In this document: piece after piece, positions 46,959-55,927 of the stretch
Layout: each line of letters opens with the position of its first letter
Position numbering within the stretch: position 1 is the stretch's first letter
DNA from: Mesorhizobium shangrilense
Lineage (GTDB): Bacteria; Pseudomonadota; Alphaproteobacteria; Rhizobiales; Rhizobiaceae
Direction: 5' to 3'
NCBI RefSeq assembly: GCF_040537815.1
Contig: NZ_JBEWSZ010000006.1
Location: forward strand, 105,125-169,124
Length of the DNA: 64,000 nt
Position numbers and translations under genes: made by a program
Notes under the pieces: model-generated
The model's database searches: none
The model's input: the letters and a program-made list of their open reading frames with translations, nothing else
Told to the model about the DNA's origin: nothing

Positions 46959-48914
<1,956 letters not shown>

Positions 48915-50836: not shown

Positions 50837-52105
50837 CTACCGATAAAGATCCGCCCGCGTCGGCGGCAGGCCGCTTGGGCCACGTGCCCGCTTGGTCACG
50901 ACAGTCTGGAAAATCTGCGCCGAGGCACGCTCGAAGGTGATCGAACAGCCAGTGAGATAGAGCAGCCAGAGCCGCGCCCTGGCTTCGCCAACCTCGGCGA
51001 TCGCTTCGTCGAACCGGGCCTGGAGACGCTGGGCCCAGAGCCTGCAGGTGCGGGCGTAGTGCTCGCGCAGGTTCTCGACATCGTAGACGAGGAAGCCATG
51101 CGCTTCGAAATTGCCGAGCGTCATGCCGATCGTGTCGAGTTCGCCGCCGGGGAAGATGTATTTGATCAGCGCCTTGTATTCCGGCCCCTTGCGCAGCGTC
51201 TTCTTCATGTCGCCCTTGCTGCGCCTGGTGATGGCATGATGCAGATAGATGCCGCCCGGCTTCAGCAGCCGATGGACGGTGGAGAAGTAGGTGGCATGGT
51301 TGGCGAGCCCCAGATGCTCGAACATGCCGATCGACGATATCTTGTCGAAAGTATCGGTTAGCTCGGCGTAGGACCGTATCTCGATGGTGATCTTGTCTTC
51401 CAGACCCTCGGCGCGGATGCGCTCGCGGGCGAGTTCCGTCTGGGCCTCCGACAGCGAGACGCCGTGGCCGGTGACGCCATAATTCTTCGCGGCATGGATC
51501 AGCATCGCCCCCCAGCCGCAGCCGATGTCGAGCAGCCGCTCACCCGGCTTCAGCCGCAGCTTGCGGCAGATATGGTCGAGCTTGTCGGCCTGCGCCTGGT
51601 CGATGTCATTGGCGAAATCCTTGAAGTATCCGCAGCTATAGACCATGCGCTCGTCGAGGAAGAGCCGGTAGAAGGCGTTTGAAATATCGTAGTGATGCTG
51701 GATCGCCTGCTTGCTCGATCCGCTGACGAAAGGGTTTCGTCCGGCAAGATCGACCGGCGCCGTCATCTGCTTTCGCGAAAGCAGCACGGCGGGCAGGTCG
51801 CGCAGGATCGCCAGTTTCGGCAATGTCTTGAGCTTCGACCTGAGCTTGCCCTGCGATGGCAGGGCGTAGAAGTCGAACAGCGATCCGTCTTCCACATCGA
51901 CCGCCTTGGAAATCCACATCTCGATCAGGGTCGACAGAGAAGGGCGGCGCACGATCTGCCAGACGATATCCTGGTCGTTGATGGTGAGCACCGGGCCTGT
52001 GGCGGGGCCGATCCGCTCGCCAGTCCAGAGCTTGACGGCAAAGCCCGGCTTCAGCGTTTCAATGACCGTTCGAACGATCCGCGCGGCCTTGTCGGTGGCG
52101 TCCAT
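50837..52105 (-). CDS. Cyclopropane-fatty-acyl-phospholipid synthase family methyltransferase
   Basis: SAM-dependent enzyme of 422 residues that methylenates unsaturated acyl chains in membrane lipids. Motifs: HHYDISNAFYRLFLDERMVYSCGYF, SAM-binding LLDIGCGWGAMLIHAAK, SIGMFEHLG and the C-terminal FEAHGFLVYDVENLREHYARTCRLWA. Length and order fit CfaS. Rhizobia have several homologues and lactobacillic acid builds up in stationary phase or acid (known). It stands alone. Confidence 0.92.
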   Translation of the reverse strand: MDATDKAARIVRTVIETLKPGFAVKLWTGERIGPATGPVLTINDQDIVWQIVRRPSLSTLIEMWISKAVDVEDGSLFDFYALPSQGKLRSKLKTLPKLAILRDLPAVLLSRKQMTAPVDLAGRNPFVSGSSKQAIQHHYDISNAFYRLFLDERMVYSCGYFKDFANDIDQAQADKLDHICRKLRLKPGERLLDIGCGWGAMLIHAAKNYGVTGHGVSLSEAQTELARERIRAEGLEDKITIEIRSYAELTDTFDKISSIGMFEHLGLANHATYFSTVHRLLKPGGIYLHHAITRRSKGDMKKTLRKGPEYKALIKYIFPGGELDTIGMTLGNFEAHGFLVYDVENLREHYARTCRLWAQRLQARFDEAIAEVGEARARLWLLYLTGCSITFERASAQIFQTVVTKRARGPSGLPPTRADLYR

Positions 52106-52276
52106 GCTTCCTCCCCGAAAGCCAGTGCAACAATGAAGTCAAGCGCACCAATGTTGTCCGATTGCCCGCGGACTGCAAGTCGGCCTGTCCGGAAAGACAC
52201 ACCACCGGCTTTTTGAGAGTGACGGCTTGCCATTTGCCGGATGAGACCCCATCATCCGTATGTGTTCAACAAATCG

Positions 52277-52290
52277 AAAGGAGGTGATCC
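52277..52290 (+). promoter_or_regulatory. Extended perfect Shine-Dalgarno sequence
   Basis: AAAGGAGGTGATCC is exactly complementary to the conserved 3' end of 16S rRNA (GGATCACCTCCTTT). The AGGAGG core lies 7 nt before the ATG at 52292, the best spacing. No other gene in the window has such a match. Confidence 0.85.
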
Positions 52291-52291
52291 G

Positions 52292-52363
52292 ATGTCGAGT
52301 GATTTCGTTTTCCAGAACGTGGCCTCAGCGGATTGCACTTTCGGGAAGCAGTCTTCCCGTTAA
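52292..52363 (+). CDS. Very small ORF (23 residues) with perfect ribosome-binding site
   Basis: ORF of 23 codons plus TAA, starting ATG 52292. The peptide begins MSSDFVFQNV, includes one Cys (ADCTF) and ends GKQSSR. It is preceded by a 14-nt perfect Shine-Dalgarno. A 7-bp hairpin CGGGAAG-CAGT-CTTCCCG covers its last codons (52342-52359), a second hairpin follows at 52378-52403, and a strong terminator ends at about 52473. No gene follows on this strand, so it is not an ordinary leader peptide. It could be a small protein or a regulatory RNA. The function is unknown. Confidence 0.6.
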   Translation: MSSDFVFQNVASADCTFGKQSSR

Positions 52364-52432
52364 GGCGCGAGATGCGCGGCGGGTGACCTCACGGGTCGCC
52401 GCCATTGAGCCGCGCCATGGACGGAAACACGG

Positions 52433-52473
52433 AAGGCCGCCGGCTTCGCAAGAAGCGGCGGCCTTTTCCTTTT
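52433..52473 (+). terminator. Rho-independent terminator of the small ORF transcript
   Basis: Nine-bp stem AAGGCCGCC / GGCGGCCTT extended by CTTC / GAAG closed with a GCAA tetraloop, followed by TTCCTTTTC on the plus strand. It lies 70 bp after the small ORF. The convergent Tad-type gene ends 8 bp further on and may use it too. Confidence 0.82.
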
Positions 52474-52480
52474 CGCGATG

Positions 52481-53842
52481 CTATTTGCTCAGCGCCAGGC
52501 GTTCGATGTTGCGGGCGATGGTCTGGAACGCGGTGTCGAGTTCGGCGCCGTTGGCGGCCTGGTAGAAATGCTTGATGCCGCCACTGTCGGGGCTGGCGCA
52601 ATCCTGCAGGGTCGCCTTGGCGTTCGCCTCGTTGAGGTCGAAGCCGATAGTGAAGATCTCGATGCCCTTGTCGCGCATCGCGGCGCAAAGCTTCTTCGCC
52701 GCCGTGCGGGTCGGCTCCTTGCCGGCGTCATTGTACACCTGGTTGACGGTGCTGGCATCGAAATAGGACAGGTTGAACTCGCCGTCGGTCATCAGGATCG
52801 CATATTTGGCGACCTTCTTGGGATCCATCTTGGCCGGCCGTTCCGAGGCCTTCATCACGCTACCCCAGTTTTCCGAAAGCATGTACCAGGCCCATTGCAC
52901 GCCGATATGGCCGGCGGTGCCGCCGGACGCGACAAAGGTCTTGATCACATTCTTGAGCGCCGTGGCATCGGCCGTCAGCGGCATCAGCGTTGCGTCCGGG
53001 CAGGCTTTCGTGCTGGTGTTGCTTGCGAAGGTCGGCAGCAGAAAATCGCTGTTGACCATGCTGGAGCCGGGGCCGGCGTCCGTATATTGATCGACCCCCT
53101 TGCGCTCGGTTGCGCAAGTGCCCGCGTTTTTCGGCGCCGAGACATATTGCGGGTCGCTGTTGCCCGGCGCCTGTTTGCGCTGGCTGGCGGAGGTTTCGAC
53201 ATAGACAGTGCTGGCGGCAAGCGTGCCGGCATTCACCGAATTGGCATAGGGCACAATGGACACGCGCACCCGAGGCTTGGACAGATCCTGCCCGGTGAGG
53301 AATGTGTCCACCGCATTGCTCGCCGCTGCCTTGAGATCCTTGATTTTCTGGCCGGCCATCGATCCTGTCACGTCAAGCATCATTGCCACTTCGATCGACT
53401 TGTCCGAATAGACGGCCGTGGTCGAGACAGGCACGCGTTGCATGTTGCCGACGCTGAACAGCGGGAAATAGAACGCGACATTGACATGGACGTCCGCCTG
53501 CACCGTCTTGGCGATCGGATCGACCGTCAATTTGTCGAGGACGATCTGGTTGGCCTGCAGGATTCCCGCCGTGTTGTTGGCATCGAGAAACGCCTGCACC
53601 GACGCGTTCGCATTGGCCTCCTTGATGACGCCGGTCGTCAGGTCGCGCGCCGTCGAGGTGACGGCGGCATCGACCACGCCCTGCAGGCTCGACTTGGCAT
53701 TGTAGATCTGGGACAGGTTGACCGAGAAGCCGACGGCCAGCGCCAAGACCGAGGCGGTAAGGCCAAACAGGACTGCGAAATTTCCACCGCGATCCCTGGC
53801 GAAACCGCCAATCGCGTGAACAAGACCCCCGTAATTCCGCAT
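52481..53842 (-). CDS. Tad-type pilus-associated protein with von Willebrand factor A domain
   Basis: Protein of 453 residues. The N-terminal TadE/TadG-like signal-anchor is DRGGNFAVLFGLTASVLALAVGFSVNLSQI; then comes a putative Flp-pilus assembly TadG region and a vWA domain with the MIDAS start VAMMLDVTGSMAG (D-x-T-x-S) and later TDGEFNLSYFD. ATG 53842 follows GAGGAGAGG. It is an orphan with no other tad genes nearby; such solitary TadG-like proteins are common in rhizobia. It is probably secreted or membrane-anchored and binds a partner protein. Confidence 0.86.
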   Translation of the reverse strand: MRNYGGLVHAIGGFARDRGGNFAVLFGLTASVLALAVGFSVNLSQIYNAKSSLQGVVDAAVTSTARDLTTGVIKEANANASVQAFLDANNTAGILQANQIVLDKLTVDPIAKTVQADVHVNVAFYFPLFSVGNMQRVPVSTTAVYSDKSIEVAMMLDVTGSMAGQKIKDLKAAASNAVDTFLTGQDLSKPRVRVSIVPYANSVNAGTLAASTVYVETSASQRKQAPGNSDPQYVSAPKNAGTCATERKGVDQYTDAGPGSSMVNSDFLLPTFASNTSTKACPDATLMPLTADATALKNVIKTFVASGGTAGHIGVQWAWYMLSENWGSVMKASERPAKMDPKKVAKYAILMTDGEFNLSYFDASTVNQVYNDAGKEPTRTAAKKLCAAMRDKGIEIFTIGFDLNEANAKATLQDCASPDSGGIKHFYQAANGAELDTAFQTIARNIERLALSK

Positions 53843-54143
53843 CCTATTGCCTCTCCTCGCCTCGGCCTCGTCGCCGGGAAGGTTCGATGCAGGATTCCAG
53901 CCGGATGACGCCGCCAATCGCCCGAAAGCAAGGAAGGCGGCACAAACTTATTGTTTTTGTTGGGTTTTGTCAGGAAGACAAGGTCAACAATACGTAAACG
54001 CGACCACCGACTCTTCGCGCCGTTTACCGGGCGCTTACCACGATCTGGCCCACCCTGAAGGAGCCGTCTGGAACGCGTCCCGCGGCGGCACAGCCGGACT
54101 GTGCCAGAGCGGACCACCGGCAGCGAGGCACTGCCGGTGACCA
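53843..54143. other. Gene-free stretch between Tad-type gene and intergenic repeat
   Basis: No convincing ORF. It holds the promoter and leader of the leftward Tad-type gene, including an AT-rich patch with TTGTTTTTGTTGG near 53952 (plus strand). The remainder to 54218 is the palindromic repeat. Confidence 0.4.
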
Positions 54144-55255: not shown

Positions 55256-55927
55256 ATGCTAGCAGGCAAGAAATTCGCCGCCTTCCTGTTCGACATGGAC
55301 GGTACGCTGCTCAATTCGACCGCCGCGGCGGAGCGGGTGTGGAGCGCCTGGGCGACACGGCATGGGCTGGACGTGGCGACTTTCCTGCCGACGATGCACG
55401 GCAGGAGGGCGATCGAAACCGTTCGCAGGCTGGCCCTCCCAGGCGTCGACCCCCAGCGCGAAGCGGAGCAGATTACCCGCGATGAAATCGCCGACGTAGC
55501 GGGAATCCAAGCACTTGCCGGCGCAGCTGCCTTCCTGCACTCACTGCCGCCAAAGCGGTGGGCCATTGTGACGTCATCACCGCGTGAGCTGGCGCTGAGG
55601 CGGATCGAGGCCGCGGGCATTCCCGTTCCCGCCACCCTTGTCACGGCCGAGGACGTAGCGCACGGCAAGCCGGCTCCCGATTGTTTCCGGTTGGGAGCCG
55701 AGCGGCTCGACTTCGATGCCAGCGACTGCCTTGTGTTCGAGGATGCGACGCCCGGCATCCAGGCGGGCGAGGCTGCCGGAGCCACGGTGCTCGTCGTCAC
55801 CGCGACACATCAGCACCCGATGGCAACAGCGCACGCCACCATCTTCGACTATGACGGTCTGAGGGCGGTCACGGACGCTCAGGGCCGCATCGGCGTGGAG
55901 CAGACGCAAGCCGCGGCGGCTTCCTAG
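55256..55927 (+). CDS. HAD-superfamily hydrolase, sugar-phosphatase-like
   Basis: Cytoplasmic phosphatase of 223 residues, subfamily IA. Motif I FLFDMDGTLLNS holds the nucleophile Asp; motif II VTSSPRE; motif III Lys in HGKPAPDCF; motif IV VFEDATPGIQAG. The cap domain and spacing resemble YfbT/YniC-type sugar phosphatases and glycerol-phosphatase homologues. AAGGA lies 5 nt before ATG. Its 3' end overlaps the convergent SdhAF4-like gene by 4 bp. Confidence 0.9.
   Translation: MLAGKKFAAFLFDMDGTLLNSTAAAERVWSAWATRHGLDVATFLPTMHGRRAIETVRRLALPGVDPQREAEQITRDEIADVAGIQALAGAAAFLHSLPPKRWAIVTSSPRELALRRIEAAGIPVPATLVTAEDVAHGKPAPDCFRLGAERLDFDASDCLVFEDATPGIQAGEAAGATVLVVTATHQHPMATAHATIFDYDGLRAVTDAQGRIGVEQTQAAAAS

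Follow-up and report, generated by a model that had tools for sequence, protein, structure and literature searches.

A free-standing small RNA with a full-length Shine-Dalgarno sequence in Mesorhizobium shangrilense, a possible translation-gated member of the CC2171 lineage

Why should a 23-codon open reading frame that precedes no gene be equipped with an exact complement of the 3' end of 16S rRNA? The question is raised by a 64,000-nucleotide stretch of the Mesorhizobium shangrilense genome (contig NZ_JBEWSZ010000006.1, positions 105,125 to 169,124; hereafter the window), for which the original prediction had proposed a small transcript that is either a very strongly translated micropeptide mRNA or an RNA capturing 30S subunits. 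The elements it had described at 52277-52473, namely the perfect 14-nt 16S complement, the ATG, 23 codons, a hairpin over the last codons, a second hairpin and a terminator with a GCAA loop, were all found (Table 1). At a probability only slightly above one half (about 0.55), we regard the free-standing structured mRNA, with a predicted length of ~211 nt, as a translation-gated RNA switch, not as a classical micropeptide gene or a plain sRNA.

Table 1. Features of the RNA locus in the window.
Feature	Position	Strand	Basis
Putative promoter: TTGCCA (52227-52232), 17-nt spacer, CATCAT (52250-52255)	52227..52255	+	sequence
Putative transcript start and conserved leader TGTTCAACAAATCG (contains CAAC)	52262..52276	+	conserved block starts about here
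Full-length Shine-Dalgarno (SD) sequence AAAGGAGGTGATCC, exact complement of the 16S 3' end	52277..52290	+	sequence, genome search, duplex energy
ORF of 23 codons plus TAA, ATG at 52292, peptide MSSDFVFQNVASADCTFGKQSSR; start kept, frame mostly kept, peptide not	52292..52363	+	sequence comparison
5' arm of predicted long-range helix P1 (codons 2-11)	52295..52323	+	folding, covariation
Candidate internal anti-SD in the ORF, at codons ADCTF; the Mesorhizobium version is imperfect, that of relatives a better one	52330..52342	+	by inspection in the window; SD-pairing test for relatives
Hairpin covering the final codons, CGGGAAG-CAGT-CTTCCCG, loop CAGT	52342..52359	+	sequence, folding
Second hairpin	about 52378..52403	+	sequence, folding
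Segment most complementary to the SD in the window copy (-20.1 kcal/mol, z -3.8), inside the second hairpin	52391..52404	+	SD-pairing test
3' arm of helix P1, directly before the terminator	52408..52434	+	folding, covariation
Intrinsic terminator: stem 52435-52463, GCAA loop 52448-52451, T-tract 52464-52473	52435..52473	+	sequence, covariation

These elements make up a compact transcription unit on the + strand (about 52262-52473), with the ATG 7 nt 3' of GGAGG. The neighbours, a CFA synthase-like gene on the 5' side (50837-52105) and a gene with VWA and Tad domains on the 3' side (52481-53917), are both on the minus strand, so the RNA leads nothing; the first + strand gene with a Pfam match 3' of it begins at 55256. 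A leader peptide or attenuator in the window was thus rejected, and the transcript is autonomous, as originally proposed. In 9 Sphingomonadales loci a same-strand gene follows, by eye a branched-chain aminotransferase gene, and the RNA may be an attenuator there. An antisense role towards CFA synthase was likewise rejected: the gene lies upstream in many Mesorhizobium loci and synteny is lost elsewhere. Matches to any of eight window neighbours numbered only 4 in 149 other loci. Among 116 Rhizobiaceae loci, a TadG homologue was on the opposite strand in 48 and an acetyl-CoA synthetase-like gene lay 5' of the RNA in 31 (short flanks hide others); the latter gene ends about 63-160 nt 5' of the SD in some Rhizobiaceae, and in the window (46959-48914) is separated from the RNA by three genes. 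CTTG was located at -58 to -40 relative to the SD in 113 of the 116. By its sequence the putative promoter resembles those of sigma70 and, via CTTG...CCCCAT, the sigma32 consensus, and may be an RpoH promoter. It was also noticed that an exact CACAAAATCTGTG palindrome, possibly a regulator site, is common to the promoter regions of L093, L102, L108, L117, L141, L168, L176 and L196, the named carriers being mostly Rhodobacterales genera.

Including G52276, the match to the 16S 3' end extends to 15 nt. The 14-mer occurs once in the 8.35-Mb genome (chance expectation ~0.06 for two strands and uniform bases), and its duplex with 16S rRNA was computed at -29.9 kcal/mol, compared with a best value of -19.4 and a median of -10.7 kcal/mol for 49 window ORFs, each scored at whichever candidate start was strongest. 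The 16S end used (GGATCACCTCCTTTCT) was verified on copies carried by plasmids in Rhizobium, Phyllobacterium, Azospirillum and others, as neither this genome nor four relatives yielded one. The RNA folded with a z of -3.98, none of 200 shuffles being as stable, and a DNA search gave a match in 60 of 61 genomes of the genus, its own included; together with the single genomic copy, these values place the arrangement beyond chance. The sole genome of the genus without a match, G013, has an assembly of 4.5 Mb, smaller than most. Outside the genus, 17 of 40 genomes matched, in the SD/start block only. Extended SD pairing exists elsewhere, as described in a paper on S. aureus (PMC13009471).

Judged by its sequence, the window RNA is a member of the lineage of the orphan sRNA family RF01867 (CC2171), at a score below that model's cut-off, a relationship that the original prediction had missed. 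An Rfam scan of the whole window at the gathering threshold gave 0 matches, and a permissive scan of 371 nt matched RF01867 over 52268-52464 with 35.1 bits (E 5.5e-6), the gathering score of 75 bits not being reached; the other weak matches in that scan we take to reflect terminator likeness or chance. The window copy shares with the family the conserved 5' block (AAUCGAAAGGAGGUGAUCC, start UGUC) and the terminal intrinsic terminator, its lineage has the family's long-range stem between an early segment in the ORF and an arm before the terminator, and intermediates connect both. RF01867 differs in being typed as an sRNA gene, with no ORF, SD or switch named in the accessible part of its entry, and the open-licence PMC papers on CC2171/RF01867, extended SD, anti-SD and dual function described no ORF, 16S complement or switch for the family. 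Rfam 15 lists it among the families given additional covarying pairs, here one (PMC11701678). Close to the window RNA by description is MH_s33 of Mesorhizobium huakuii 7653R, an RF01867-annotated RNA-seq product whose 215 nt compare with the ~211 nt predicted for the window. It is listed as an sRNA, with no Northern mark in that paper's table, and its flanking genes are both on its own strand, whereas both flanks are opposite in the window (PMC5596092).

Of 289 genomes of the class, 61 matched the RF01867 model, 9 of them above its cut-off; of the 14 control genomes, Caulobacter alone gave a match. A search of 385 class genomes located the exact 14-mer with a TGTC start context in 57 and the reversed pattern in none, and an SD with one mismatch followed by NNTG was present in 125 of 199 Rhizobiaceae, a few unrelated matches counted in (reversed control, 3 of 199). 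Scanning of named genomes revealed at least 117 loci, nearly all labelled Alphaproteobacteria (some MAGs, Proteobacteria); genera among the matches listed include Bradyrhizobium, Methylobacterium, Sphingomonas, Novosphingobium, Ruegeria, Azospirillum, Brevundimonas and others. The SD/start pattern also occurred in MAG contigs labelled outside Alphaproteobacteria, L100, L131 (Gemmatimonadetes), L209 (Nitrospinota) and L184 (SAR92), three of these four copies having a TTG start and a 14-20-aa ORF; L184 we take to be a chance match, and the MAG copies may reflect misbinning, transfer or a wider distribution. In a Sinorhizobium-like genus, the RNA was found in 32 of 33 genomes with the SD AAGGAAGGTGATCC, one of them carrying a further change. 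The SD of the Rhizobium/Sinorhizobium clade pairs with the 16S end at 13 of 14 positions, and the RNA is kept all the same.

Is the frame translated? In 221 distinct copies the start codon was ATG (138), GTG (78) or TTG (5), and none was without a start; since the pattern searches behind many copies fixed TG and left the first base free, only that base is informative, and it was never C. ORF lengths were mostly 14-36 codons, with extremes of 6 and 44-59, and stop codons changed identity within lineages, in sets selected for length. Of the 106 copies considered, 96 bear a C-terminal RNA motif; in 90 of these it was located 52, 55 or 58 nt from the start, all in one frame, six being out of frame. 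At the sequence level, this conservation of start and frame argues for translation of an RNA filed as non-coding. At the extremes of length, a Pelagerythrobacter copy (L107, position 7966, -) has a stop after 6 codons, a natural test of the need for the full ORF length, and two ORFs of 59 aa (L171, Azospirillum sp. B21, 6757+) and 56 aa (L066, 1500+), with the same SD and terminator, look by eye like small secreted proteins, having a hydrophobic N-terminal stretch ending in A-x-A.

A link to translation data comes from SEP1 of S. meliloti, a 23-aa peptide of pI 4.18 conserved in Rhizobiaceae, which had the highest translation efficiency among 54 Ribo-seq sORF candidates, one PSM and, as a tagged fusion under the foreign sinI promoter, a Western signal (Hadjeras et al. 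2023, PMC10117765). All 30 copies read, out of the 32 in the Sinorhizobium-like genus, encode 23 aa, and the three searched genomes nearest S. meliloti (G693, G694 and G701; 91-92% identity to a pSymB piece) encode MSNEISDLVMDMGEVKESRQPSA (copies L270, L271 and L278), whose length of 23 aa and computed pI of 4.18 are those of SEP1. Identity is judged here by length and pI, not by sequence, and pI 4.18 is also found in three further copies of this genus (L259, L260 and L279), so the match is strong, not proof. The window peptide, also of 23 aa, has a computed pI of 5.71. Through this link, efficient translation of the family RNA is likely, and the strong translation originally predicted for the window copy is probable. 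In Caulobacter, two previously predicted ncRNAs were found to be translated, the others in the main not (Schrader et al. 2014, PMC4117421). The rnTrpL/peTrpL attenuator RNA of S. meliloti is likewise a small RNA with a very short translated ORF; it is leaderless and derives from the trp attenuator before trpE (PMC10117765), whereas the window RNA has a maximal SD and no downstream gene.

The start is kept, and mostly the frame; the peptide is not what is conserved. In six sets, three of them Rhizobiaceae, dN/dS was 0.80-1.39 and the three codon positions had about equal shares of the variable sites; a Rhizobium-clade set of 7 gave 1.30. The single hint of peptide constraint was a value of 0.54 in Sinorhizobium, for which some constraint is possible. 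Purifying selection on amino acids at the level of a conserved micropeptide (dN/dS well below 1) was thus not found. Membership of these sets was decided on peptide length and N-terminus, which in part predetermines their stop positions and amino acids but leaves synonymous sites free; in 44 near relatives picked by their first six residues (MSSDFV), codons 2-5 were invariant, third positions included.

Conservation was found instead in a long-range helix, P1, in which codons 2-11 can pair with about 30 nt directly 5' of the terminator. As P1 was chosen after looking at the arms, an arm-swap test and two covariation tests served as controls. The arm tests used 199 of the 221 distinct copies (22 failed terminator or length filters); mean pairing z against dinucleotide shuffles was -1.97, with 59% of copies at p<=0.05. 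In 48 clusters linked at 70% identity, own arms averaged -22.6 and swapped arms -16.1 kcal/mol, and none of 2000 permutations matched the own sum; individually, only 17 or 18 of the 48 ranked their own arm in the top 5%. Covariation was assessed in a Rhizobiaceae alignment (A1, 37 sequences) and a CC2171-like alignment (A2, 34 sequences), each with a structure taken from one of its members. Among the P1 pairs, double changes were present at 12 of 18 in A1 and 14 of 20 in A2, and among the terminator pairs at 10 of 12 and 9 of 11, while the share of cells pairing was 83.2% in A1 (shuffled 76.6%, slides 42-54%) and 79.9% in A2 (shuffled 73.1%, slides 35-57%). In both alignments the whole-structure covariation score exceeded all slides and 500 of 500 shuffles, which do not remove relatedness; for the further-pair-types measure of A1, 4 of 500 shuffles did as well. 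Pairing was strong at the outer end of P1 (94.8% in A1, 90.2% in A2) and weak in its inner pairs. Helix by helix, A1 had 81.0% for helix 2, only 59.5% and 53.3% for helices 3 and 4, and a strong 89.9% for helix 5; A2 had 62.7% for helix 2. The consensus folds that RNAalifold gave for the lineage alignments were weak (-14 to -37 kcal/mol), that of the Sphingomonadales set showing the long-range pairing. Terminator criteria were loose: of 257 regions, 241 passed as they stand and 69 after mononucleotide shuffling. The original prediction had held that synonymous bias would favour a peptide and compensatory changes an RNA; the former was not seen and the latter were plentiful, which argues for RNA rather than peptide. 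Its interpretation stood in part, having overlooked both this helix and the internal anti-SD of relatives.

Of 128 representatives, 50 (~6 expected) have a segment 3' of codon 11 whose pairing with the SD outdid 95% of shuffles. In CC2171-like copies the anti-SD often lies in the stretch coding TWIVAS-like residues (CCUGGAUC..GCCUCC); L163 carries GGAUCACCUCC. CCTTCC near the ORF end was present in 31 of 33 distinct copies with the SD AAGGAAGG, as against 6 of 57 Rhizobiaceae copies with a AAAGGAGG-type SD; SD and anti-SD thus differ together in the Rhizobium/Sinorhizobium clade, which may reflect a single evolutionary event. When 112 of the 128 representatives were folded at full length, 40 had the SD paired downstream and 35 had P1 as the dominant pairing; 2 showed both and 39 neither above 0.5, and the two pairings were negatively correlated (-0.72). 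The window copy is of the P1 kind, its SD not being paired downstream in the full-length fold, with no stable sequestration. In the same 112, opening cost on average 6.4 kcal/mol for the SD and 11.9 kcal/mol for the 30S footprint to +15; by simple duplex sums without other initiation terms, the full SD (mean -27.4 kcal/mol) outweighed this cost in all 112 and a bare GGAGG (-8.7 kcal/mol) in 13 of them. Since in these sums only the full SD makes opening generally favourable, we take the extreme SD to be what initiation on a conserved fold costs.

In the translation-gated switch that we propose, a 30S subunit would have to melt P1, and the SD:anti-SD pairing where formed, in order to start, and the 14-15-nt SD would pay the energetic cost. 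Ribosomes crossing the ORF would free the 5' strand of P1 from its partner, along with any anti-SD that the ORF encodes, and the RNA would thereby have two shapes, ribosome-loaded and ribosome-free, toggled by ribosome entry and transit. The idea rests on in-silico folding and is in keeping with the possible switch suggested earlier, there being structure around both the start and the stop codon. The output would be this shape rather than the peptide, perhaps as RNA stability or as a freed 3' arm pairing with other RNAs. More tentatively, we consider it possible that the RNA is an ancient alphaproteobacterial ribosome sensor, carrying the full complement of the 16S end and, in many lineages, a partial mimic of that end; free 30S subunits would compete with its own anti-SD and P1, their supply would set its shape, stability and activity, and the peptide would be a throw-away by-product.

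That the locus is instead a functional micropeptide gene, with a strong SD for high output of a mostly 14-36-aa peptide and structure merely tuning expression, appears unlikely. Such a gene would account for the kept start and mostly kept frame, the nearly invariant peptide within Mesorhizobium, the dN/dS of 0.54 in Sinorhizobium, the 56-59-aa versions in L066 and L171, and the translation efficiency and Western signal of the probable S. meliloti member (PMC10117765); against it, the six sets show no clear third-position excess, peptides share little beyond the initial M-S across orders, and the stretches encoding TWIVAS and similar lineage motifs are also segments of RNA pairing. We think it improbable that the RNA is a decoy titrating ribosomal subunits by its 14-15-nt pairing, a ribosomal counterpart of 6S RNA. 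The pairing of ~-28 kcal/mol is an outlier among the 49 window ORFs and follows the 16S end through GGUGAUCC, past the usual SD core, and a bias on translation is conceivable because most Caulobacter start sites lack an SD (PMC4117421). However, a start codon follows the SD, and the high translation efficiency of the likely S. meliloti member (PMC10117765) argues against a mere 30S trap. Moreover, the match is weaker in the Rhizobium/Sinorhizobium clade, where the RNA was not lost.

There is little to commend a sponge for sRNAs with CCUCC loops, as CrfA is in Caulobacter, the sRNAs concerned being those of the alpha-r8 kind and those of S. meliloti with CCUCCUCCC loops, which we take to be named alpha-r14. 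The 5' segment is GA-rich, and there are precedents in CrfA with UUUCCUCCCU sRNAs (PMC12559287) and in the CCUCCUCCC loops themselves (PMC3927594), but conservation extends through UGAUCC to the start codon, which such sRNAs do not need, and the CrfA motif is in a stem-loop, that of the window RNA in a 5' tail. Least probable, and already disfavoured, is an ordinary trans-acting sRNA whose SD and ORF are incidental: Rfam and the M. huakuii list (PMC5596092) file it so, yet the SD is invariant with variation in the start codon only, the frame is conserved and SEP1 matches.

Already known were RF01867 as an sRNA family, the 215-nt Mesorhizobium transcript and SEP1 as a translated sORF; new are a start and mostly a frame kept without the peptide, codons 2-11 in a covarying helix, the internal anti-SD of many members and, in a simple energy sum, the need for the full SD to open the fold. 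If the switch reading is true, an Rfam family that is filed as sRNA and owes its first name to a cell-cycle model organism would prove to be translated, its ORF conserved as RNA and ribosome track, not as peptide, with an extreme SD kept in a class where most Caulobacter start sites have none. The family would offer a test bed for extended SD function, for competition between structure and ribosome and for the evolution of dual coding and structural constraints, and it cautions against taking strong Ribo-seq signal together with a conserved start as sufficient evidence of a functional peptide.
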